Under the pieces are notes generated by a model, which saw only the letters and a program-made list of their open reading frames with translations, had not been told where the DNA came from and did not search any database. Shown here one piece after another: positions 589-11,486 of a DNA stretch of 33,456 nucleotides. The position numbers were made by a program, and so were the translations under genes. The stretch is from contig CAIXPF010000090.1 of assembly GCA_903921205.1 (NCBI GenBank), positions 1 to 33,456 of the forward strand. Reading direction: 5' to 3'. The DNA comes from an uncultured Acidimicrobiia bacterium. Its GTDB lineage: Bacteria; Actinomycetota; Acidimicrobiia; Acidimicrobiales; CAIXPF01. Position 1 is the stretch's first letter. Every line of letters starts with the position of its first letter.

Positions 589-1272
589 TCAGCGGATCGG
601 ACCGGTCCGGTCCACCAGTTCACGCGACGAGAGGATCTCGTCGACGATGCCGTACTCCTTGGCCATCTCGGCCGTCATGACGAAGTCACGATCGGTGTCC
701 TTGGCGATGCGCTCCACCGGCTGGCCGGTGTGGTGCGAGAGGATGCCCTCGAGCTGGGCCTTGAGCCGCATGATCTCCGAGGCGACGATCTCGATGTCGG
801 TCGCCTGGGCGTAGCCGGACTGACCGTGAGGCTGGTGGATGATGACCCGTGAGTGCGGCAACGCCATCCGCTTGCCCTTGGACCCTGCGGCGAGCAGCAC
901 CGCAGCCGCAGAGGCCGCCTGGCCGAAGCAGATCGTCGAGACCTCGGGACGGATGTACATCATCGTGTCGTAGATGGCGAACATCGCGTTGATGTCGCCC
1001 CCGGGGCTGTTGATGTAGATGTTGATGTCCTTGTCGGGGTTCTCCGACTCGAGGTGCAGCAACTGCGCACAGACCAGGTTGCCGATCGTGTCGTCGATCG
1101 GCGTGCCCAGGAAGATGATGGATTCCTTGAGCAGACGGGAGTAGAGGTCGAACGCACGCTCGCCCCGGTTCGTCTGCTCGACGACCGTCGGGACCAGGTA
1201 GTTCATCATCCGCACATCGCGCTCGCTGCGGATCGCGACCTCTGCGAGACGGGCTCCCGGTTGCTTGGTCAC
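589..1272 (-). CDS. clpP: ATP-dependent Clp protease proteolytic subunit ClpP
   Basis: Serine peptidase that forms the double-heptamer barrel used by ClpX (or ClpC). The 227-residue product has the family core [10 protein letters not shown] at residues 24-33, catalytic Ser121 in GQAASAAA and His146 in VIIHQPHG, which are 25 residues apart as in E. coli ClpP. The catalytic Asp lies in the DTDRD stretch at 192-196. The chosen GTG at 1272 overlaps the tig stop codon as GTGA, which suggests translational coupling. An internal ATG pair (residues 22-23) just before NYLVP could be the start of the mature or alternative form. Actinobacteria often carry two clpP genes; only one is in this window. Confidence 0.97.
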
Positions 1273-2654
1273 TCTGCGTCCTCCCCCGGTGCGCCCGGGT
1301 TGTCGTGCTCAGCGGCGTCTGTATCGGCATCGTCGGCGTCGGCCGACAGTTCGAGCGAGGCACGATCGACGACGTTTCCGTCTTCGTCAACGATCTCGAC
1401 CTGCTTGAGCAGCCAGTCGAGCGCCTTGGCCTTCTTGACATCCGAGCGTACAGCCAGCATCTGCCCGGCGCGCTCGAAGTTCACCCGGATCTCCTCGGCA
1501 TCGACACCGAATCGACGGGACAACTCGGCGAAGTGCTGCTCGAGATCCTCGCCGTTCACCTCGTGGCCCTCGGCCTCGGCCACGGCCCGCAGCGCCAGGT
1601 CGACCTTGACCGCTTCCTCGGAAGCGGTGCGCTGTTCGGCGACGAGGTCCTCGGCGGACTGCCCGGTCAGCTGCAGGTAGCGACCGAGGTCCATCCCCTG
1701 GGAACGCATCCGGCTGTCGAGGTTGTTGATCCGGGCCGACAGCTCGTTCTGCACCAGCGCCGGCGGAACGTCCTCGGTGATGAGGGCGATCAGCGCCTCG
1801 GCGGTTTTCTGCTGCAGCGCCATGTTGGCGGCCACCAGCTTCTGGCGGGCCTGCTGCTCACGGAAGGCGGTGCGCATCGCCTCGACGGTGGCGTACTCGG
1901 AGACCTCGGCCACCCAGGCGTCGGTGAGCTCGGGCAGGACCCGGCCACGCACCTCGTGCACCTCGATGGTGAACTGCAGGGGGGCCTCGCCCTCCTCGGG
2001 GTGCTGCGCGTCGAAGGTCAGCTGCGCACCGGCACTCGCACCGCGCAGGTTCTCGTCGATCTCGGGCACCACACCGCCGCTACCGACCTCGTACGCGTAG
2101 TCGGAAGCGGTGAGCCCCTCGACGGCCTCGCCGTCCTGAGAGCCGGCGATGTCGATGAGGACCTGGTCGCCGTCCTCGGCGGGGCGATCGGTCACCTCGT
2201 AGTCGGCGTGTTGGGTCTGCAGTCGCTCGACGCGGGCGTCGACATCGGCTTCGTCCACCGCCGGCGAGGGGATGACGACGCGTAGGTCGCGGTACCCCTC
2301 GAGCGTCAGCAGCGGCCGAGTCTCGACGACGGCCTCGAAGGAGACCCCGCCCTCCTCGGCGCCCGAGATGATCTCGAGTTCCGGAGCGGCGATGGCGTCG
2401 ACCTCGTGGTTCTTCACCGCCTCGGCGTAGTACTCGGGCAGGGACTCCCGAAGGGCGTCCTGCCGGGCTGCACCGATCCCGAGCCGGGCTTCGAGCACCT
2501 TGCGGGGCGCCTTCCCCGGCCGGAACCCCGGCAACCGGACCTGCTTGGCCATTCGACGGAAGGCTTCGTCGACCTGATGGTCGATCTCGGAGGCCTCCAC
2601 CTCGATGAGCAACTTGACCTTGTTTCCCTCGAGGGTTTCCACCGTGCTCTTCAC
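1269..2654 (-). CDS. tig: Trigger factor, ribosome-associated chaperone and peptidyl-prolyl isomerase
   Basis: Binds the ribosome exit tunnel and shields nascent chains. From GTG at 2654 the product is 461 residues, normal for the family. The ribosome-docking signature GFRPGKAP lies at residues 43-50, followed by the FKBP-like PPIase domain (about 150-245) and the helical substrate-binding C-terminal domain. It ends in a strongly acidic tail rich in Asp, Glu and Ala. The open frame extends further upstream, but the extension runs back across the tRNA-Pro locus and does not resemble trigger factor. The GTG has no ribosome-binding site but sits 9 bases after a TACACT hexamer, so the mRNA is probably leaderless or nearly so. 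First gene of tig-clpP-clpX. Confidence 0.96.
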
Positions 2655-2663
2655 AGGGGAGGC

Positions 2664-2669
2664 AGTGTA
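2664..2669 (-). promoter_or_regulatory. -10 element of tig, leaderless type
   Basis: TACACT on the minus strand, 9 bases before the tig GTG. Transcription should start within a few bases of the start codon. No clear -35 is visible; the 6-mer at 17-bp spacing does not resemble TTGACA. Confidence 0.6.
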
Positions 2670-2753
2670 GTGATCGGACCCGGGGTAGCGGGACATGCGG
2701 AGCGCCGGCAGCCGATGGGCCTCGGCGGGCCCATCAGCGACGACCGGGGGCGC

Positions 2754-2759
2754 TAGCGT
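2754..2759 (+). promoter_or_regulatory. -10 element of tRNA-Pro
   Basis: TAGCGT, 11 bases before the first base of tRNA-Pro. The same hexamer precedes two leaderless protein genes in this window (10913 and 17181), which supports its reading as a vegetative -10 box. It is divergent from the tig promoter. Confidence 0.55.
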
Positions 2760-2770
2760 GGGAGTCCGAA

Positions 2771-2844
2771 CGGGGAGTAGCGCAGCCAGGTAGCGCACCT
2801 GCTTTGGGAGCAGGCGGTCGGGAGTTCGAATCTCCCCTCCCCGA
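2771..2844 (+). tRNA. tRNA-Pro, anticodon UGG
   Basis: A full cloverleaf can be folded. The acceptor stem CGGGGAG pairs with CTCCCCG (2837-2843), with discriminator A at 2844. The anticodon arm is CCTGC-TTTGGGA-GCAGG with anticodon TGG, which reads proline codons. The T arm is GGGAG-TTCGAAT-CTCCC. The D loop contains the AGCGCAGCCAGGTAGCGCA pattern. The 3' CCA is not encoded. It is 74 nt long. Confidence 0.95.
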
Positions 2845-2864
2845 CGGCATCGGCGGCGATGCCG
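2845..2864 (+). terminator. Hairpin after tRNA-Pro, probable terminator or processing signal
   Basis: CGGCATCG and CGATGCCG form a perfect 8-bp stem with a GCGG loop, starting one base after the tRNA. There is no following T-run, so termination without U-tract, or 3' processing, is inferred. From here to base 3054 (about 190 bases) I see no gene or clear signal. Confidence 0.45.
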
Positions 2865-3054
2865 ACGGGGTGCCCGCGCCCCCCGGCAGCGATCATTGCG
2901 CCGCAGGGACCACCGGATAAGGTGCACCGCCTGACCTCGTCGGGACGACCGTCGGATGTTGTGGCCGAGGGAGAGACAGCTCTCCGTACCGGTCCACCAC
3001 GCGGCGGACATCGAGGCACTCGACGGAGACCGAGCAGCGAGCACCCCATGGCGA

Positions 3055-3086
3055 TTGACCACCACCAGCGTCCGCTTACCTACGAT
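3055..3086 (+). promoter_or_regulatory. Promoter of the P-loop GTPase gene
   Basis: TTGACC (3055-3060) and TACGAT (3081-3086) are separated by 20 bp, longer than the usual 17-18. A start near 3093 would give a leader of about 26 nt holding GGAGG at 3102-3106 before the GTG at 3119. Unlike most promoters in the window it has a recognisable -35 box. Confidence 0.45.
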
Positions 3087-3118
3087 GAGTGCGTGCCGCC
3101 CGGAGGTCCCCGCCCGCT

Positions 3119-4972
3119 GTGACCGCATCGACGCTTCACTGGCGAGAGCAGCTGCTGCCCGGGCCGTCCTCGTCGGACGGCTATCGGACGGTGCTGATGG
3201 TCGGCACCACCGGGGCCGGCAAGACCACCCTGATCCGCCAGCTCATCGGCACCGACCCCGCAACCGAACCGTTCCCGGCGACCTCGACCTTCAAGACCAC
3301 GACCGCCGAGACCGAGATCCTCTGTGCGCCGGGCGACTTCTACGCCGTCGCGGTCTTTGCCGAGCGGATCAAGGTCAGGGCCGAGATCGAGGACTGTGTC
3401 GTCGCCGCCGCGGCCGCACTGGCCGAGGGCCGGCCCCACGACGTCGCCCGTGACGCCCTCGCCGCCCACACCGACGAGCGTCTGCGGCTCGAGTACGTAC
3501 TGGGCGCCGACTGGCTCGACGCCGCGGTGTCCACCATCGAGTCGGTGCTGCGCCACCGGCCGGCGGCGGGCCTCGACGAGGTCGCCGAGCGGGTCCGGAC
3601 CGAGCCGACCCTGCGGGCCCTGGTGGACCACCTGCTCGCCGATGTCGCCGCCCGGTTCACCACCTTGCGGTTCGGGCAGCTGCTCACCGACGACGACGAG
3701 AGCTGGCCGCGGTGCTGGCAGTTCACGACCGATGAGCGTGCCACGCTGTTCTCGGCCATCCGGCGGCTCGCCGGCAACGAACGGGGCAGCCACGGCACCC
3801 TGCTGTCGCCGATGGTCGAAGCGCTGCGGGTCCGCGGCCCCTTGCATCCGACCTGGGCGAGCGAGATCCCGTACCTGATGGCGGTGGACACCGAAGGGCT
3901 GGGCCACGTGCCGCTCACCGCGGCGTCGCTCCCTCTTGCGGTCATCGAGCAGCTGGAACGGGCCGACCGGATCATCCTCGTCGACGACGCCACCCACCCG
4001 ATGCAGGCGGCCCCGCTGGCGGCGCTGCGGCAGCTGGTCATGGCGGGACACCTCGACAAGCTTGCACTGTGTTTCACCCACGCCGACGGGGTGATCGGGC
4101 CGAACATCGTGACCACGGAGGACCGGGACTCGCTGCTGCGCCGTTCGGTCAACCAGGCCGTGCTGTCGCTGCGCGACGACCTCGGTGAGACGGCCTGGCG
4201 GGCGCTGGCCCACCAGCTCGACGAGCACCACTTCGTGCTCGGCCAGCTCGACCAGCGTCTGGACAGCCGCAACCCCGCGCAGACCGTGGTGATCGCCGAA
4301 CTGCACCGCCTGCTCGGGTGGCTGCGCAAGGAGCGCGTCACCATCGACACGTCCTCGTTGCGGCCGGTGTACCGCCTCAACGACCTGCGCTCCCGCCTGT
4401 TGTCGGTCGCCGAAGCCTTCGCGACCGCCTGGCCGGAGATGTTGGCCAGGACCCACTGGCGTCAGGTGCAGGCCCTCTGCCGGCGGATCGCCGACGGCGG
4501 CGACGGCTATGCCGACCTGCAACCGGTGGCCCAGCTCACGGCGTCGGTGCTCGACGCCATCCGTGACTTCGTCGAGCGGCCGATCCGCTGGACCGACGTC
4601 GTGCCGGCCGACGATCAGCAGCTGGCGTTGTTCGACGGGTTCCTCCGGACGGTGACCGGCGAGGTGCTCGAGGCGTGCCGCAACGAGCTGGCCGGCGCGC
4701 ACCGGGCGGACTGGGAGCACGCCAGCACCCAGGTCGGCATGGCGACCGCGGCGCAGCGCGTGGCCGCGCTGGCCACGACGGTGTTCTCGACACTCACCCG
4801 GGTTGGCACCGACGGCACGTCGCTGGTGGAGGACGTGACCGAGCTGGTGCGCCGGGCCGCGCTGCAGTCCGGCTTCGACATCGGAGACGTGGTGCGGCCG
4901 GCCGGGAACGTGTTCGGGCAGACCCTCAAGCCGGTGCGCCGGCCCGGACTCGCGCACCATCGCGGGTTCTGA
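3119..4972 (+). CDS. P-loop GTPase-like protein of unknown function with a long internal insert
   Basis: Not a family I can name. From GTG at 3119 (GGAGG 12 bases upstream; an in-frame GTG at 3089 is the alternative) the product is 617 residues. A P-loop GTTGAGKT lies at residues 29-36, a Thr-rich stretch that may serve as switch I (TSTFKTTT) at about 54-61, DTEG (DxxG) at 257-260 and THAD at 320-323 in the place of NKxD. About 195 mostly helical residues separate the putative switch I from DxxG. No signal peptide or membrane segment is evident, so it is probably cytoplasmic. The C-terminal half is helical with Arg- and Leu-rich stretches. It stands alone between two tRNAs with its own promoter. 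GTP binding is inferred from motif order only; a general P-loop NTPase is possible. Confidence 0.8.
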   Translation: MTASTLHWREQLLPGPSSSDGYRTVLMVGTTGAGKTTLIRQLIGTDPATEPFPATSTFKTTTAETEILCAPGDFYAVAVFAERIKVRAEIEDCVVAAAAALAEGRPHDVARDALAAHTDERLRLEYVLGADWLDAAVSTIESVLRHRPAAGLDEVAERVRTEPTLRALVDHLLADVAARFTTLRFGQLLTDDDESWPRCWQFTTDERATLFSAIRRLAGNERGSHGTLLSPMVEALRVRGPLHPTWASEIPYLMAVDTEGLGHVPLTAASLPLAVIEQLERADRIILVDDATHPMQAAPLAALRQLVMAGHLDKLALCFTHADGVIGPNIVTTEDRDSLLRRSVNQAVLSLRDDLGETAWRALAHQLDEHHFVLGQLDQRLDSRNPAQTVVIAELHRLLGWLRKERVTIDTSSLRPVYRLNDLRSRLLSVAEAFATAWPEMLARTHWRQVQALCRRIADGGDGYADLQPVAQLTASVLDAIRDFVERPIRWTDVVPADDQQLALFDGFLRTVTGEVLEACRNELAGAHRADWEHASTQVGMATAAQRVAALATTVFSTLTRVGTDGTSLVEDVTELVRRAALQSGFDIGDVVRPAGNVFGQTLKPVRRPGLAHHRGF

Positions 4973-4995: not shown

Positions 4996-5017
4996 CGGTA
5001 GCGGTGCGGTAGCGGTG
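4996..5017 (+). repeat. Two tandem 11-bp repeats before tRNA-Gly
   Basis: CGGTAGCGGTG is repeated twice head to tail, ending 17 bases before the -10 box of tRNA-Gly, so it covers the -35 area. Function unknown. Confidence 0.6.
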
Positions 5018-5034
5018 CGGCCCCCGTCCTCCGA

Positions 5035-5040
5035 TAGGCT
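5035..5040 (+). promoter_or_regulatory. -10 element of tRNA-Gly
   Basis: TAGGCT lies 10 bases before the tRNA and matches TAnnnT. The position relative to the mature 5' end mirrors tRNA-Pro. Confidence 0.5.
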
Positions 5041-5050
5041 GGCGGGCGCT

Positions 5051-5121
5051 GCGGGTGTAGCTCAATGGCAGAGCTCCAGCCTTCCAAGCTGGCCATGCGG
5101 GTTCGATTCCCGTCACCCGCT
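5051..5121 (+). tRNA. tRNA-Gly, anticodon UCC
   Basis: Acceptor stem GCGGGTG pairs with CACCCGC (5114-5120), discriminator T. The anticodon arm CCAGC-CTTCCAA-GCTGG carries TCC. The T loop is GGTTCGATTCC. It is 71 nt long, typical for bacterial tRNA-Gly, with no encoded CCA. Confidence 0.95.
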
Positions 5122-5130
5122 CCCCAGAAC

Positions 5131-5167
5131 GCCCTGGTCGGACACCACGTCGGACCGGGGCTTCTTC
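5131..5167 (+). terminator. Intrinsic terminator of tRNA-Gly
   Basis: GCCCTGGTC (5131-5139) pairs with GACCGGGGC (5153-5161) over nine positions with one T-G wobble and a 13-base loop, followed by TTCTTC. It is the best terminator in the window. It lies just outside the stop of the convergent FG-GAP gene and could serve both strands in part. Confidence 0.65.
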
Positions 5168-5187
5168 GTGCGTGGCGCAGCTCGGAC

Positions 5188-8100
5188 TCAGTCGTCGTCG
5201 ATCACCGTGACCGTCGCCCGGTCATCGGCGACGGTGGCCCCGACCACATCGCTCAGCACCAGCTCGAAGGATTCGTCGGATTCGTCGATGCGGTCGCCGC
5301 GCACCAGCAGCGTGACCGTCCGCTTCGTCGCACCGGCGGGGAAACTCACCCGGACAGCGGCTTTGGGCACGAAATCGGTCCCCGCCGCGGCCGTTCCCGC
5401 GACGGTACGCACCACGAAACTCCCCGCCGCCGGTGCCGGCACCGAGAACAGCACCGGCACCACGACCCGCCTCGTCGAGCCGGACGGACCCTCGACCACC
5501 CGCACATCGCCCGCCGCCAGGGCCGGCACCGGGGACCCGACCGGCACGGTGATCTCCGACGCAGCCACCGCACGCGCCCCCCGATCGTCGGTGACGGTCA
5601 ACGTCACCAGGTACGTGCCCGCTCGGGCGAAGCTGTGCTCCACCGTCGGGCCGGTCGCTGTCGTGGCGTCGCCGAAGTCCCAGACCGCCCCGGCGAGCAC
5701 ACCATCGGGATCGCTCGACGCGGAACCGTCGACACGCACCGACAGCGGCGACCCGGGGACGGTCGAGCGCTGCAACCTGGCCACCGGCGGCCGGTTCTTG
5801 CTCGTGCCGTCCCGCGGGCTCTCGGGTGGGCCCTCCCCCACCGGTGCCGTGGTGGAACGGGTGAGGAACAGCTTGTCGAGCAACAGCCCGTCCTCCGCGA
5901 GCCAGACATCGATGGCGTGCTCGCCCGGCGCGGGCACGACCAGGACAGCCGACCGACCGTCGAGGGTGCTGCGGGTCCAGCCGAAGGTCGCCCCGGCCGG
6001 ACGGCTGATCCGGTCCGAACCGGCGAGCGGCTGCCCGTCGAGACCGATGTGCACCACGTTGGCGTTGGCGTCGGGCGCCCTCAGCCGCAGCCACAGCCGG
6101 TAGATGCCGGGCGCGCTGAAGCGCGCCCGGTAATGCAACGATGCCGTACCGTTCGGTACGGTCGAGGCGTTGAGGCCGCGGTCGGGCAGCGCAGCCATCG
6201 CCACCCCTCCGGCGGCCCCCGCCGAAGCGACCGGCGACCAGGTGTGTACCGAGGAGCCCACATCGGACGCGTGGAAGTGCTCGGCCTCGATCGACAACGA
6301 ACCGCCGAGCTCGACAAAGGTGTCCGTACCGGCTGGACGCGGACCCCCGCTCCAAGCCCCCGCCATCGCCTCGGCCCCGTTACGGGTCGAGACCGATACC
6401 ACCGATCCTGACGCCACCGAACCTGTTGGTACCACGTCGATACCAGCTGGTATGGCAGCGTCGGCGGTCTCGACGTAGAGCTGGAGGTGACGGGCGACAC
6501 CGGCCGGCCCGGGCAGGGAGACGCGCACGGTTCCGGCGGCGAACAGCCACGGATCGAAATCGGCTGCCGGGACGAACTGGCGGGCCAGACCCGAGGCCAC
6601 AGCTGCGCCGTGCTCGTCGACCTCCGCCACCCGCAACGAGCCCGGATCGAACCGGCCGGTACGGCCGACGGCCGCCAGCGCATCCGACACGTCGACCCCG
6701 ACCTCGACCCGCACGGTCTCCGCCGAGGGCGCACCCGCCGGGACGAGCACGTTCACCCGCAGCCGGTGCGACGGCTCCAGCCACGGCGAGGCTGCCTCGC
6801 GCAACCCCAGGTTCTCGTGGACGACCACGTTGTTGTGGTTCCAGCCGATGGTGAACACGTCGAGATCGCCGTCGCCGTCGAGATCGGCGAGCTGCATCCC
6901 GTCGTGGTACTCCTCGTCCCGGCTCAACACGTGCGACGCCCACTGCCCGCCACGGCCGTCGACGTTCTCGAGCACCCGGCCCGTGCCGTGGCCGGCGTCG
7001 GCAACATCGTGCTCGCCCACCACCGCATCGAGGTCGCCGTCACCGTCGAGATCGGCCACGTCGAGGCTGAGCAACGGATACGGACCACCCGAGGCCATCA
7101 CGTGACGCACCCACAGACCTGCAGGGTCCACGGGCTGTTCGAACCAGACCACCGAGTTCGCCGGGTCGTTCTCGTGGGTCACCACTGCGTCGAGCCGGCC
7201 GTCGCCGTTGACGTCGGCAGCCACCACCCGGTCGGGCAGCGCCACCGACCCCGGGTCGGCCGCGTCACGGCAGCAGGCGGTCGGGGCGTGCAGATCGACA
7301 CGGACCCAGCGGTCCTCGCCGTCGTTGCGCAGCCACAGGTGGCCCTCGAGCAGGTCGGGATCGCCATCACGGTCGACGTCGGCGAAGGCGATCTGCTCGC
7401 CCTGGGACACCGGGCTCGGACGGTCGAGCATCCAGGTGGCCGACGACGGGTACGCCGGGACGACGAGACGGTTCAGCCCGGCCGCCGCCTCGTGCCAGGA
7501 CAGCCAGACCTCGATCGGACCGCCGGGCCGGGTCCGCCCGATCGCCACGCCCTGCAGGAATCGGCCATCGGGTGAGGCCGGCTCGATGTCGGCGGACACG
7601 ACGAAGTGACCGCTGCCGTCGTTCGCGGCCCAGGCGAAGCGGTGGCCCTCGCCGTCGCTGCCCGCTCCCCGGGTGCCGAACAGGTCGAGGTCGCCGTCCT
7701 CGTCGAAGTCGGCCACCGCGACGACATCGGTGAGTGGATCGCCCACGACATGCGCCGGCCACGGGTCATACGAGCCGCGGTTCTCGTACCACTGGGCACC
7801 GGTGACCAGATCGGCGTCGCCGTCACCGTCGAGATCGCCGTGGCGGATGAACAGCGACGGGCCCGTACGGGTGCCGACCACCCGACGGGCCCAATGGTCC
7901 AACGGCCGGGGCCGCAACAGGTTGCGATAGACGGCGATGCCCGGCGATCCGTCGTCGAAGGGCTTGCTCACCACCTCGAGGTCGCCGTCGGCATCGACAT
8001 CGACCAGCCTCGACTCGTGGTTGTCGACACCGTCGGAGAACCGCTCGACGCTGAACCCACCCGTCCCGTCCCCGAGCAGGACCACCGCCCGGGCCGCTCC

Positions 8101-9201
8101 CGGCGCGCCGAGGGCCATCTCGGCGGCGAAGACATCGAGCCGGCCGTCGAGATCGACGTCGCCGACGTCGAGGCTGTGACCGTGACGCCAAGGACCGGGC
8201 AGTTCCGCGGTGAGCAGGCTGGTGCCCACCCACGCCGAGCCCGACCAGCGGTGCAGCGTCAGGCCGGCGTCGCCGTCGCCGGAGGACGTGACGATCTCAG
8301 GGCGACTGCCGGGCACGAACTGACCGACGACGACCCGGCCCAGGGTGAACCCGGGGTCGAACGCCTCGAAGGACCACCCCGTGTCGTTGCGCCGGAGCCA
8401 GCCGCCGGTGAGCACGATGTCGTCACGACCGTCGACGTCGACGTCGCCGATCGTCAAACCCTCGCCGGGGGTGCTGCCGTCGTACACCCGGGTGACCGGC
8501 CAGGGAACGACCGTCGGATCGGCCGGCACCGTCGCCACGAACACGTCGTCGATCCGGCTGCCGGGGGCACCCTGGTTCCAGAACGCCAGGTCCCGGCGAC
8601 CGTCGCCATCGAAATCGCCGAAACCGAGGTCGTGATGCTGCGGCTCGGCGGTGACCACGATCTCCAGCCGGGGCCACGCTGCGCCCCATCCGGACGGGCC
8701 CGGGTTCCGCCACCACCACACCGAGCTCGACGTGTGATCGCCGGCCAGCACCACGTCGAGGTAGCCGTCGCCGTCGACATCGGCCGCGGTGCCCCCGGCG
8801 TCGAGCGGCAGGGACGCCGGTTCCACCACCGACATCTGCCAACCGGCGTCACCGAGGCGGTACCACGCCAGGGCGTTCGGACCGCCACGGGCCCCGATCA
8901 TGAACTCGCCGCGCCCGTCACCGTCGAAGTCGCCGTCGACGAGCGTCGTCTGGGCGAACGGACCCGGCGGCAGGGGCAGCTCGCCCGACGCGGTGTCGAG
9001 CCGCTCCCAGGCCATCCGGCCCGACGTGGCCCCCGTTGCCGGCGCCGTTCCCGCAGGTACGGTCGACGACGCAGCGGCCGGGCCGGGCGGCCACGCCGGG
9101 AGCGAGCCGGCGGTGGCCGGTTCGACGAGGACGGCAGCCAGGCACGCGAGCACGGCGAAGAGCAACGCCATTGCACCGGCACGATCCCTGACCGGTCCCA
9201 T
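5188..9201 (-). CDS. Secreted FG-GAP/VCBS-repeat protein with PKD and Calx-beta domains
   Basis: Large exported protein of 1337 residues from ATG at 9201. The N-terminus has a short charged stretch, a hydrophobic core (about residues 10-26) and an Ala-rich end (ATA-GS) fitting a Sec signal peptide. Residues about 60-790 hold twelve well-kept calcium-loop motifs of the DxDxDG type (for example DFDGDGR, DVDGDGY, DLDGDGD) and one degenerate one, each followed by a hydrophobic strand. This is the FG-GAP/VCBS beta-propeller pattern. Then come a beta-rich linker, a carbohydrate-binding-like segment (about 960-1120), a PKD domain with WDFGD, and a C-terminal Calx-beta domain ending VTVIDDD. I see no catalytic motif and no LPxTG, GlyGly-CTERM or type IX signal. 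It is probably a calcium-dependent surface or matrix adhesin. It follows the GDT1-type transporter by 43 bases, probably in one operon. Confidence 0.9.
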   Translation of the reverse strand: MGPVRDRAGAMALLFAVLACLAAVLVEPATAGSLPAWPPGPAAASSTVPAGTAPATGATSGRMAWERLDTASGELPLPPGPFAQTTLVDGDFDGDGRGEFMIGARGGPNALAWYRLGDAGWQMSVVEPASLPLDAGGTAADVDGDGYLDVVLAGDHTSSSVWWWRNPGPSGWGAAWPRLEIVVTAEPQHHDLGFGDFDGDGRRDLAFWNQGAPGSRIDDVFVATVPADPTVVPWPVTRVYDGSTPGEGLTIGDVDVDGRDDIVLTGGWLRRNDTGWSFEAFDPGFTLGRVVVGQFVPGSRPEIVTSSGDGDAGLTLHRWSGSAWVGTSLLTAELPGPWRHGHSLDVGDVDLDGRLDVFAAEMALGAPGAARAVVLLGDGTGGFSVERFSDGVDNHESRLVDVDADGDLEVVSKPFDDGSPGIAVYRNLLRPRPLDHWARRVVGTRTGPSLFIRHGDLDGDGDADLVTGAQWYENRGSYDPWPAHVVGDPLTDVVAVADFDEDGDLDLFGTRGAGSDGEGHRFAWAANDGSGHFVVSADIEPASPDGRFLQGVAIGRTRPGGPIEVWLSWHEAAAGLNRLVVPAYPSSATWMLDRPSPVSQGEQIAFADVDRDGDPDLLEGHLWLRNDGEDRWVRVDLHAPTACCRDAADPGSVALPDRVVAADVNGDGRLDAVVTHENDPANSVVWFEQPVDPAGLWVRHVMASGGPYPLLSLDVADLDGDGDLDAVVGEHDVADAGHGTGRVLENVDGRGGQWASHVLSRDEEYHDGMQLADLDGDGDLDVFTIGWNHNNVVVHENLGLREAASPWLEPSHRLRVNVLVPAGAPSAETVRVEVGVDVSDALAAVGRTGRFDPGSLRVAEVDEHGAAVASGLARQFVPAADFDPWLFAAGTVRVSLPGPAGVARHLQLYVETADAAIPAGIDVVPTGSVASGSVVSVSTRNGAEAMAGAWSGGPRPAGTDTFVELGGSLSIEAEHFHASDVGSSVHTWSPVASAGAAGGVAMAALPDRGLNASTVPNGTASLHYRARFSAPGIYRLWLRLRAPDANANVVHIGLDGQPLAGSDRISRPAGATFGWTRSTLDGRSAVLVVPAPGEHAIDVWLAEDGLLLDKLFLTRSTTAPVGEGPPESPRDGTSKNRPPVARLQRSTVPGSPLSVRVDGSASSDPDGVLAGAVWDFGDATTATGPTVEHSFARAGTYLVTLTVTDDRGARAVAASEITVPVGSPVPALAAGDVRVVEGPSGSTRRVVVPVLFSVPAPAAGSFVVRTVAGTAAAGTDFVPKAAVRVSFPAGATKRTVTLLVRGDRIDESDESFELVLSDVVGATVADDRATVTVIDDD

Positions 9202-9244
9202 CCGCCATCCGCCCACTCGAGTCCGGCCCACGCCGGTCCGGGGC

Positions 9245-9889
9245 CTATTGTGGCGAAGAAACCACCGTAAGTGGCGGATAGGTGGACGACGCCGCCGGCC
9301 CGGCCGCGTCGTCCTGCGGCGAGCGCAGGGCCTCGACCAACAGCACCGCACCGAAGACGAAGAACGCCAGCGCCGCACCGATCCGGATGGCCCGCTCCGG
9401 CAGACGGGCACCGAGCACACGGCCCACCACGATGGCCAGCGCGTCCGCCGCGACCATCCCCAGCGTCGAACCGAGCCAGGTCCCGAACCAGCCGTGATCG
9501 GCGGCCAGGGTCACCGTCGCCAGCATCGTCTTGTCCCCGAGCTCGGCCAGGAAGAACACCGCTCCGACGCTGAGCACCGCATAGCGGGCCGGCCGGGCTG
9601 CCCGCTCCTGCTCCTCCTCGGTCAACCGGTCCCCGCGCAGGGTCCAGGCGCCGAACGCCAGGAACGCCACCGCAGCGACCGCCGAGATCGCACGGGTCGG
9701 CAACGCTGCCCCGAGGGCGGCCCCGAGCCCCACCGACAGGGCATGCACGATCGCCGTGGCCACGCCGATGCCGGTCAGCACGGTCAACGGCGGGTAGCGG
9801 GTGGCGAAGGCCAGGGCCATCAACTGGCTCTTGTCGCCCAACTCGGCCACGAAGATCACGGCGAAACTCAGCAGGAAGGCAGCAACCAC
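9245..9889 (-). CDS. GDT1/TMEM165 (UPF0016) family cation transporter
   Basis: Membrane protein of 214 residues made of two homologous halves. Each half carries the family signature ExGD(K/R)(T/S): ELGDKS at residues 16-21 and ELGDKT at 116-121. About six hydrophobic segments flank a cytoplasmic charged loop around residues 85-101. Characterised members move Mn2+ or Ca2+ out of the cytosol, in exchange for H+ in some cases; bacterial members mostly act as Mn2+ exporters. The GTG start at 9889 has GGAGGAG 6-12 bases upstream. It sits between the PhyH-like gene and a secreted calcium-binding protein. No yybP-ykoY manganese riboswitch is recognisable in the short upstream gap. Family assignment is firm; the ion is not known. 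Confidence 0.92.
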   Translation of the reverse strand: MVAAFLLSFAVIFVAELGDKSQLMALAFATRYPPLTVLTGIGVATAIVHALSVGLGAALGAALPTRAISAVAAVAFLAFGAWTLRGDRLTEEEQERAARPARYAVLSVGAVFFLAELGDKTMLATVTLAADHGWFGTWLGSTLGMVAADALAIVVGRVLGARLPERAIRIGAALAFFVFGAVLLVEALRSPQDDAAGPAASSTYPPLTVVSSPQ

Positions 9890-9905
9890 ACCGTTCTCCT
9901 CCGAT

Positions 9906-9932
9906 GGACGGGGCGACGCAGTCTCCCCGACC
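9906..9932 (-). other. Hairpin between the PhyH-like gene and the GDT1-type gene
   Basis: GGTCGGGG and CCCCGTCC pair around an 11-base loop with one T-T mismatch. It lies after the stop of the upstream gene and before the ribosome-binding site of the next, without a T-run. It may be an attenuator or stability element. Confidence 0.35.
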
Positions 9933-9944
9933 GGGGCCGGCGAT

Positions 9945-10748
9945 TCACAACCGACCGGGGCGACGCCACAGCAGCGGGAACAGCGGATGGTCCAGCGGTG
10001 CCCCGACCGCGAGCTCGTCGGCCAGGCCGGGGAACGGAGGCGAGGTCCGCCACGGCCGCGGACGGTGCACCATGTCCTCGCCGAGGAAGCGCACCGACAG
10101 CACCCGGCGCCGGCGCGGACCGGCCACCCCCGCAGCACTGTGCACCGTCAACATGTGGAAGAACACGGCGTCACCGGGCTCGAGCGCCCAGCGCAGCACC
10201 CGGAACCGGCCGGGATCGGCGTCGATGTCGGGCAACTCGGCCAGCGCGCCCTCCGGGAACCAACGGGCCTGCTGGTCGAGGAACGTCCGTGGCAGGTACC
10301 ACGGGCCGAGGTGGCTGCCCGCCACCAGATGCAGGCTGGTGGCGGCGTCGACCGCGTCGACCGGCAGCCACATCGAGATGTTCCGGGCCCCGTCGACGTT
10401 GTAATAGGGCAGATCCTGGTGCCACGGGGTGCGCTGGCGGGTTCCGGGCTCCTTCACCAGCAGATGGTCGTGGAAGAGGCGGACCTCCTCCGCGCCCATC
10501 AACTCGCCGGCTATGGCCGCCGCCGGGGACTGCTCGATGAACCGCCGCAGCGGCTCGATGCGCTGCCACGAGCAGAAGTCCTCGACGAACGCCCCGTCGT
10601 CGGGCGGACTCGCCCGCAAGGCCAGTGGCGACAGGTCGGCAAGGTTGGCCTCGATCGCCTCGCGGGCCAGCGCCACATCCTCCGGCCCGAACGCACCGCG
10701 CACACAGACCGCACCGTCCTCGGCGAACGAACCCTCGACCCTCGGCAC
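9945..10748 (-). CDS. Phytanoyl-CoA dioxygenase (PhyH) family Fe(II)/2-oxoglutarate oxygenase
   Basis: Non-haem iron oxygenase of 267 residues, the usual PhyH size. The iron-binding triad is visible as H110xD112 in WHQD and H203 in LTVHSAAG, with Arg around 213-215 expected to bind 2-oxoglutarate. The double-stranded beta-helix core runs from about residue 88 to 222. The substrate cannot be told from sequence: this family hydroxylates phytanoyl-CoA, but also ectoine precursors and many secondary metabolites. GTG at 10748 has a G-rich stretch (GGGGGA) upstream. A TACGCT -10 box about 55 bases upstream leaves a leader holding a perfect 16-bp palindrome. It heads a probable three-gene operon with the GDT1-type transporter and the FG-GAP protein. 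Confidence 0.9.
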   Translation of the reverse strand: MPRVEGSFAEDGAVCVRGAFGPEDVALAREAIEANLADLSPLALRASPPDDGAFVEDFCSWQRIEPLRRFIEQSPAAAIAGELMGAEEVRLFHDHLLVKEPGTRQRTPWHQDLPYYNVDGARNISMWLPVDAVDAATSLHLVAGSHLGPWYLPRTFLDQQARWFPEGALAELPDIDADPGRFRVLRWALEPGDAVFFHMLTVHSAAGVAGPRRRRVLSVRFLGEDMVHRPRPWRTSPPFPGLADELAVGAPLDHPLFPLLWRRPGRL

Positions 10749-10770
10749 TCGGTCCCCCTGCGGTCACCCC

Positions 10771-10786
10771 GGCGTCGATCGACGCC
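10771..10786. promoter_or_regulatory. Perfect 16-bp palindrome in the PhyH leader, operator candidate
   Basis: GGCGTCGATCGACGCC is an exact inverted repeat with no loop. It lies between the TACGCT -10 box and the GTG start, just after the expected transcription start, a common repressor position. The binding protein is unknown. Confidence 0.5.
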
Positions 10787-10802
10787 CTCCGGCCCCCGGC
10801 GC

Positions 10803-10808
10803 AGCGTA
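10803..10808 (-). promoter_or_regulatory. -10 element of the PhyH-like operon
   Basis: TACGCT on the minus strand. Initiation about 7 bases downstream would give a leader of roughly 50 nt. No convincing -35 box. Confidence 0.45.
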
Positions 10809-10833
10809 GAGCCGACCGGGCCGTGGCCCGGTG

Positions 10834-10876
10834 GCGGCCTGCGGTGCGGCGGCCTGCGGTGGGACGGCGTGCGGTG
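10834..10876 (+). repeat. Three direct repeats with 15-bp period
   Basis: GCGGCCTGCGGTG at 10834 and again at 10849, then ACGGCGTGCGGTG at 10864. The repeats sit 37-80 bases upstream of the flavin reductase -10 box, in the divergent gap shared with the PhyH-like operon. Phased direct repeats can be activator sites, but replication slippage is an alternative. Confidence 0.6.
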
Positions 10877-10912
10877 GGGCAGTCCGCGCCGGAACGCCGC
10901 CCACGTGACCGA

Positions 10913-10925: not shown

Positions 10926-11486
10926 GTGACCCTGCACCTCCTCGCCGTGTCCGGCAGCATCCGCGCCGGATCGTTCAACACCACCCTCGCCCACGCCACC
11001 GCCGCCCTCGCACCCGCCGACGCAACCGTCGAGGTCGTCGACCTCATCCGGGAGCTGCCCTACTACGACCCCGACCTCGACGTGGAGCCCCTGCCGGCCG
11101 CAGCCGCCGATCTGCGTCGCCGGTTCGCCGCCGCCGACGGCATCGTGTTGTTCGCCCCGGAGTACAACTTCGGCCTGCCCGGTGGGTTCAAGAACCTCAT
11201 CGACTGGGCCAGCCGTCCCTACGGCAAGCACTGCCTGGTGGGCAAGCCGGTGTCCGTGGTGGGCGCGAGCCCCAGCGGTGGCGGGGCAGCGCAGGCCGTG
11301 TCCTACCTACGCACCGTGTTGCCGTTGCTCGGCGCGGAACTGGTGGGTGACGAGCTCACCATCGGCAAGGTCAACACCCTGCTCGATCCCGAAACCGGCG
11401 CACCCGGCCCCGAACTGGCCGGGCAACTGGCCGCGATGATCGGCCTGTTGGCATCGACGGCCGCAGCCAAGGCCGAACTAGCCTGA
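10926..11486 (+). CDS. NAD(P)H-dependent FMN reductase family flavoprotein
   Basis: Flavodoxin-like oxidoreductase of 186 residues. The N-terminal strand is followed by SGSIRAGSFN, the FMN phosphate loop of the NADPH-dependent FMN reductase family. PEYNFGLPGGFKNLIDW (about residues 78-94) is the conserved segment contacting the flavin ring, and GASPSGGGAAQA is a further family loop. GTG at 10926 was chosen because it follows the TAGCGT box by 7 bases; in-frame GTGs at 10905 and 10917 are weaker options. It lies 79 bases before cobT. Such enzymes can supply reduced flavin, which cob(II)alamin reduction and the DMB synthase BluB both need. A role in corrinoid metabolism is therefore possible but inferred from position only. 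Confidence 0.9.
   Translation: MTLHLLAVSGSIRAGSFNTTLAHATAALAPADATVEVVDLIRELPYYDPDLDVEPLPAAAADLRRRFAAADGIVLFAPEYNFGLPGGFKNLIDWASRPYGKHCLVGKPVSVVGASPSGGGAAQAVSYLRTVLPLLGAELVGDELTIGKVNTLLDPETGAPGPELAGQLAAMIGLLASTAAAKAELA

Follow-up and report, generated by a model that had tools for sequence, protein, structure and literature searches.

A GDT1-family cation exporter gene adjoins a genus-specific tandem-propeller protein gene in an uncultured Acidimicrobiia bacterium, probably through inherited gene order

Analysis of a 33,456-nucleotide stretch of DNA from an uncultured Acidimicrobiia bacterium (contig CAIXPF010000090.1; the whole stretch is hereafter called the window) indicated that two adjacent genes, both on the minus strand and at the coordinates originally given, encode a cation exporter of a known kind and a genus-specific tandem-propeller protein, which the locus adds as a new member to a known superfamily. 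We consider it probable that an ordinary GDT1-family exporter lies here beside a genus-specific propeller protein, and that the two genes are neighbours by inherited order and not as a pair dedicated to ion delivery. The exporter, judged by its family, would move probably Mn2+, possibly Ca2+, out of the cytosol. The propeller protein is probably secreted, appears to consist of two tandem seven-bladed VCBS propellers followed by C-terminal beta domains, and would most likely acquire its fold extracellularly, using Ca2+ drawn from its environment. Coordinates of the features are given in Table 1.

Table 1. Features of the gdt1-propeller locus (window positions)
Feature	Position	Strand	Remarks
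PhyH-family dioxygenase gene	9945..10748	-	55 bases upstream of gdt1, same strand
gdt1, GDT1/UPF0016 divalent cation exporter gene	9889-9245	-	214 aa, GTG start; Pfam match and motifs
Terminator-like hairpin in the last codons of gdt1	9262..9277	-	weak consensus match
Gap, gdt1 stop to propeller gene start	9202..9244	-	43 bases
VCBS/FG-GAP tandem-propeller protein gene	9201-5188	-	1,337 aa; probably secreted; GH115_C, PKD, Calx-beta
Region of 14 repeats, with loops from about residue 91 to about residue 773	6796..8934	-	12 with Dx[DN]xDG; approximate bounds
GH115_C-like domain, residues 961-1127	5821..6321	-	profile match
PKD domain, residues 1136-1219	5545..5796	-	profile match
Calx-beta domain, residues 1261-1337	5191..5421	-	partial match, profile 40-119 of 119

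The GDT1 protein matched Pfam GDT1 (PF01169) with E=9.3e-43 and 144.9 bits against a cut-off of 27, in two matched stretches, and contains two copies of the E-x-G-D-[RK]-[ST] motif, ELGDKS and ELGDKT; together these confirm the predicted transporter of GDT1/TMEM165 type. Both the Pfam match and the motifs are shared with the GDT1/UPF0016 family (TMEM165, Gdt1p, SynPAM71/Mnx, MneA), here within one protein; the review PMC7380456 gives the family motif as E-x-G-D-[KR]-[ST] in one or two copies. NCBIfam yielded a match below the cut-off only, and a sequence search of solved structures gave no match up to E=0.1. The window genome (G000) carries one gdt1 copy.

Export of Ca2+ or Mn2+ had been predicted. 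In the same review bacterial GDT1 is linked to Mn2+ and not to Ca2+: Mn2+ transport is described there as the sole indication so far for cyanobacterial and bacterial members, and a Mn2+ riboswitch lies upstream of the gene in 328 of 333 screened bacterial cases (PMC7380456). Unlike most of these screened genes, the window gdt1 showed no yybP-ykoY riboswitch (RF00080), with no Rfam match up to E=5 in positions 9150-10250, and none was found with stricter filters in any of the 59 genomes searched. This absence counts against the preferred reading. Since no riboswitch was found, the ion is assigned to the window GDT1 by family membership, and regulation gives the Mn2+ assignment no support at this gene.

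Profile searches with the propeller protein revealed FG-GAP_3 (E=1e-45, 154.6 bits), PKD_4 (4.1e-20), GH115_C (7.6e-11) and Calx-beta (5.7e-09); the last, a domain already predicted, is a partial match that forms the C-terminal end. The protein contains 12 loops of the form Dx[DN]xDGxx[DE], as does each of two orthologs, so that the predicted count of twelve DxDxDG loops stands while their composition is corrected to 11 strict loops and one DVNGDG. The strict DxDxDG pattern also gives 12 matches, one of which (residue 89) overlaps its neighbour (91), DVNGDG at residue 663 being excluded. In 1,000 shuffles of the protein the mean number of DxDxDG matches was 0.18 and the maximum 2, and the abundance of the pattern is therefore not due to chance. 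In our own reading of the repeat register the protein has 14 repeats, a number that fits two tandem seven-bladed propellers by count; the repeats near residue 293 and near residue 552 lack a loop. The tandem 14-repeat layout, the PKD and GH115_C domains and the upstream PhyH gene were absent from the original prediction. The N-terminus, judged by eye, is signal-peptide-like, which makes the claimed secretion a probable one, and the loops would be expected from their pattern to bind Ca2+.

Residues 60-960 were modelled by AlphaFold as nearly all strands (mean pLDDT 70.8, pTM 0.47). The 50 Foldseek matches listed for this model had query TM-scores between 0.23 and 0.35; most were multi-propeller chains of DDB1 and SF3B, and 4a7k (aldos-2-ulose dehydratase) and CRTAC1 were also among them. 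The model makes a propeller fold of this region plausible; the mean pLDDT of the C-terminal part was only 44.5. Searching the sequences of solved structures with the propeller protein matched the PKD and Calx-beta parts only (17 sequences), and NCBIfam holds no family for it. Once folded, the protein would likely act in glycan binding or as an adhesion/scaffold protein, as its domains suggest. The stretch around residues 805-965 is a domain without a Pfam name in the profile search, and recurs elsewhere at G000:C77:3100-3582, on G001:C27 and on G003:C1, in open frames of 922, 922 and 1009 aa respectively.

Near-full-length orthologs of the propeller protein were found, among the 59 genomes searched, in the genomes of a single genus, G000, G001 (87% identity) and G003 (62-63%). 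At the level of the order, the propeller profile exceeded the cut-off in 3 of 397 genomes, all in the genus of the window; this count applies to E <= 1e-20 with at most two candidates per genome scored in the results shown, and weaker relatives such as a 473-aa frame on contig C24 of G002 (E=3.8e-18) fall outside it. A genome-contig scan with the propeller protein returned six relatives, two from the genus and four distant ones (L065, L066, L067 and L068), which are planctomycete or armatimonad records with short propeller proteins. The identity of the latter to the window protein is 35-39% over the best segment of the propeller region, and in three of the four records the open frame has 411-418 codons, which corresponds to one propeller by length. 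Neither GDT1 nor PhyH was matched with an E-value better than 1.1 in the retrieved flanks of these four relatives.

The window protein has in common with the VCBS/FG-GAP propellers, including the bacterial integrin-type ones, its FG-GAP_3 repeats bearing Dx[DN]xDG loops, and tandem copies of seven-bladed propellers are already known in bacteria according to PMC3192720. What sets the window protein apart from the known propellers is that its 14 repeats are combined with GH115_C, PKD and Calx-beta, an architecture that the present searches recovered in full length from this genus alone. The VCBS superfamily, as described in PMC8023676, includes Ca2+-binding, carbohydrate-binding and secreted members, and its loop may hold other cations too.

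Comparison of the gene neighbourhoods showed that gdt1 adjoins the propeller gene on the same strand in G000, G001 and G003, that is, in all three genomes with an ortholog, while in G002, the fourth genome of the genus, gdt1 lies on contig C118 without a propeller neighbour. Of the 62 gdt1 loci scanned, only the three from the genus have a frame with at least two loops beside gdt1, and a profile built from the propeller alignment recovered the same three. No such frame was found near gdt1 in 48 other gdt1 genomes (59 loci, G002 included), and a single loop-like match in a frame occurred at 15 of these 59 loci. The flanks scanned were about 1.5 kb on each side, several kb in six cases, and some were ended by the contig end; the 62 loci include those from a gdt1 search that was positive in 126 of 396 genomes and supplied loci for 30 places. 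The search for the same pair in other genomes, which had been proposed as a check, therefore found it in two more genomes of the genus but neither in G002 nor elsewhere in the 48-genome flank scan of which G002 is part. Lack of conservation had been named as grounds for abandoning the prediction, and adjacency in two further genomes means that the pair is not wholly unconserved. No conservation beyond the background gene order was seen in the order counts, the collinearity or the flank scan.

All 30 query frames of the window matched contig C7 of G001 in window order, between 56.6 and 92.6 kb; some of these frames overlap on opposite strands, and the one at 10927-11486 contains stop codons, which were replaced by X in the query. 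A 10.7-kb contig of G003 preserves the order from the propeller gene through gdt1 to the genes on its right, with another gene in the place of phyH. Since the window is collinear with G001 and partly with G003, adjacency of the two genes is what inherited gene order leads one to expect. Against this reading, the pair has been kept at 62-63% protein identity despite phyH being fragmented in G001, where it matches only as separate pieces, and replaced in G003. Beside the fragmentary phyH, G001:C7 (L051) contains about 4 kb of extra sequence relative to the window, at about 67.0-71.1 kb.

The original prediction held that GDT1 exports the ion needed by a cotranscribed propeller protein, so that ion and protein would be delivered to the outside together. 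A precedent exists in the TerC proteins MeeF and MeeY of Bacillus subtilis, which are reported to load secreted proteins with Mn2+ and to interact with SecYEG (PMC12096827), and the propeller ortholog adjoins gdt1 wherever one was found. PMC7380456 and PMC12096827 assign both TerC and UPF0016 to the LysE superfamily or describe them as related to it, and the shared idea is an exporter supplying metal to exported proteins; TerC is nevertheless a different family from GDT1, and a metalation role for the window gdt1 would be by analogy. The Dx[DN]xDG loops are of the Ca2+ type (PMC8023676), whereas the evidence for bacterial GDT1 concerns Mn2+ (PMC7380456). The distribution of the genes also argues against ion delivery: GDT1 exceeded the cut-off in 182 of the 397 genomes of the order as against the 3 with the propeller profile, so that most gdt1 genomes are without the partner, and the flanks scanned yielded no pair beyond the collinear block. 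The further FG-GAP repeats of the genus lie on other contigs (three in G000, four in G001, one in G003 and seven in G002), and the single gdt1 copy of the window genome thus stands against FG-GAP repeats on three contigs besides its own. Ca2+ is normally available outside cells, which further weighs against a need for its delivery.

Joint delivery of ion and protein is accordingly not supported, in view of the larger collinear block, of G002 and the other scanned flanks without the pair, of the genome-specific gap and, weakly, of the hairpin at the gdt1 end, and we regard ion delivery as very improbable. The stronger proposal that in this genus GDT1 has been recruited to load the large multi-loop propeller with Ca2+ or Mn2+ during its passage through the membrane, the two forming a dedicated pair and a counterpart of the TerC type, is an analogy that we consider remoter still. 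Were the pairing functional, it would carry over to bacterial GDT1 proteins the metalation of secreted proteins by exporters that is reported for TerC; the present data lend weak support to a functional pairing of gdt1 and the propeller gene, in the form of adjacency within one genus. No description of a GDT1 or manganese exporter paired with an FG-GAP/VCBS protein was found among the papers listed in searches of one open-licence library.

Inherited order as the preferred explanation was also weighed against shared regulation without ion delivery, in which gdt1 and the propeller gene, with or without phyH, would belong to one operon since the same conditions call for both metal homeostasis and surface properties. 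The predicted distance of 43 bases between gdt1 and the propeller gene was reproduced, and the three genes lie on the same strand with gaps of 55 and 43 bases, an arrangement compatible with an operon and in this respect unfavourable to the preferred explanation. Because phyH lies so close upstream on the same strand, an operon here may include it as a third gene; in three genomes gdt1 has kept the propeller gene as its neighbour, but not phyH. The corresponding stop-to-start gaps are wider in the relatives (depending on which start codon is taken, about 106-154 bases for G001 and 84-108 for G003), a terminator-like hairpin lies at the gdt1 end (weak), and collinearity already predicts the adjacency. 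Shared regulation is therefore unlikely in our judgement, although cotranscription of gdt1 and the propeller gene is possible, and the two may share a transcript while being neighbours through inherited order. The lesson of the locus is that a short gap and adjacency in relatives must be weighed against background gene order.

Alignment of the gdt1 ends revealed that the last 26 residues of the window GDT1 extend past the end conserved in relatives (beyond VEAL); the stop follows directly after the VEAL codons in G001 and five codons later in G003. The distance from VEAL to the propeller start is 124 bases in G000, 124 to the aligned GTG in G001, and 102 or 121 in G003 according to the start codon chosen. 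As these distances are similar across the relatives, the 43-base gap, particular to the window genome, looks as if gdt1 had grown into an older spacer some 120 bases long. Between G000 and G001 the 124-base spacers share 76 identities, overall not above chance (200 shuffles: mean 68, maximum 78), and a conserved spacer as a whole was rejected on these figures; the likeness is confined to the last stretch before the propeller gene. Counting both strands, the region 5000-10900 contains six terminator-like sites, against a mean of 1.9 (sd 1.6) in shuffles. A sigma-70-like promoter scan of the same region gave no site, and a separate promoter for the propeller gene is likewise without support.

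A GC-rich hairpin with GGGGAGACTG was observed just upstream of gdt1, at 9885-9945 (-) in the window and at 7540-7605 (-) in L051 of G001; GGGGAGACTG was absent from the upstream stretch of G003 inspected, and the hairpin had no Rfam match. Elsewhere in the window, ClpP and trigger-factor genes are located at 589-3128 (-). A tRNA-Pro at 2771-2845 (+) overlaps the upstream part of the trigger-factor frame, and the true start of the trigger factor is therefore probably further in.
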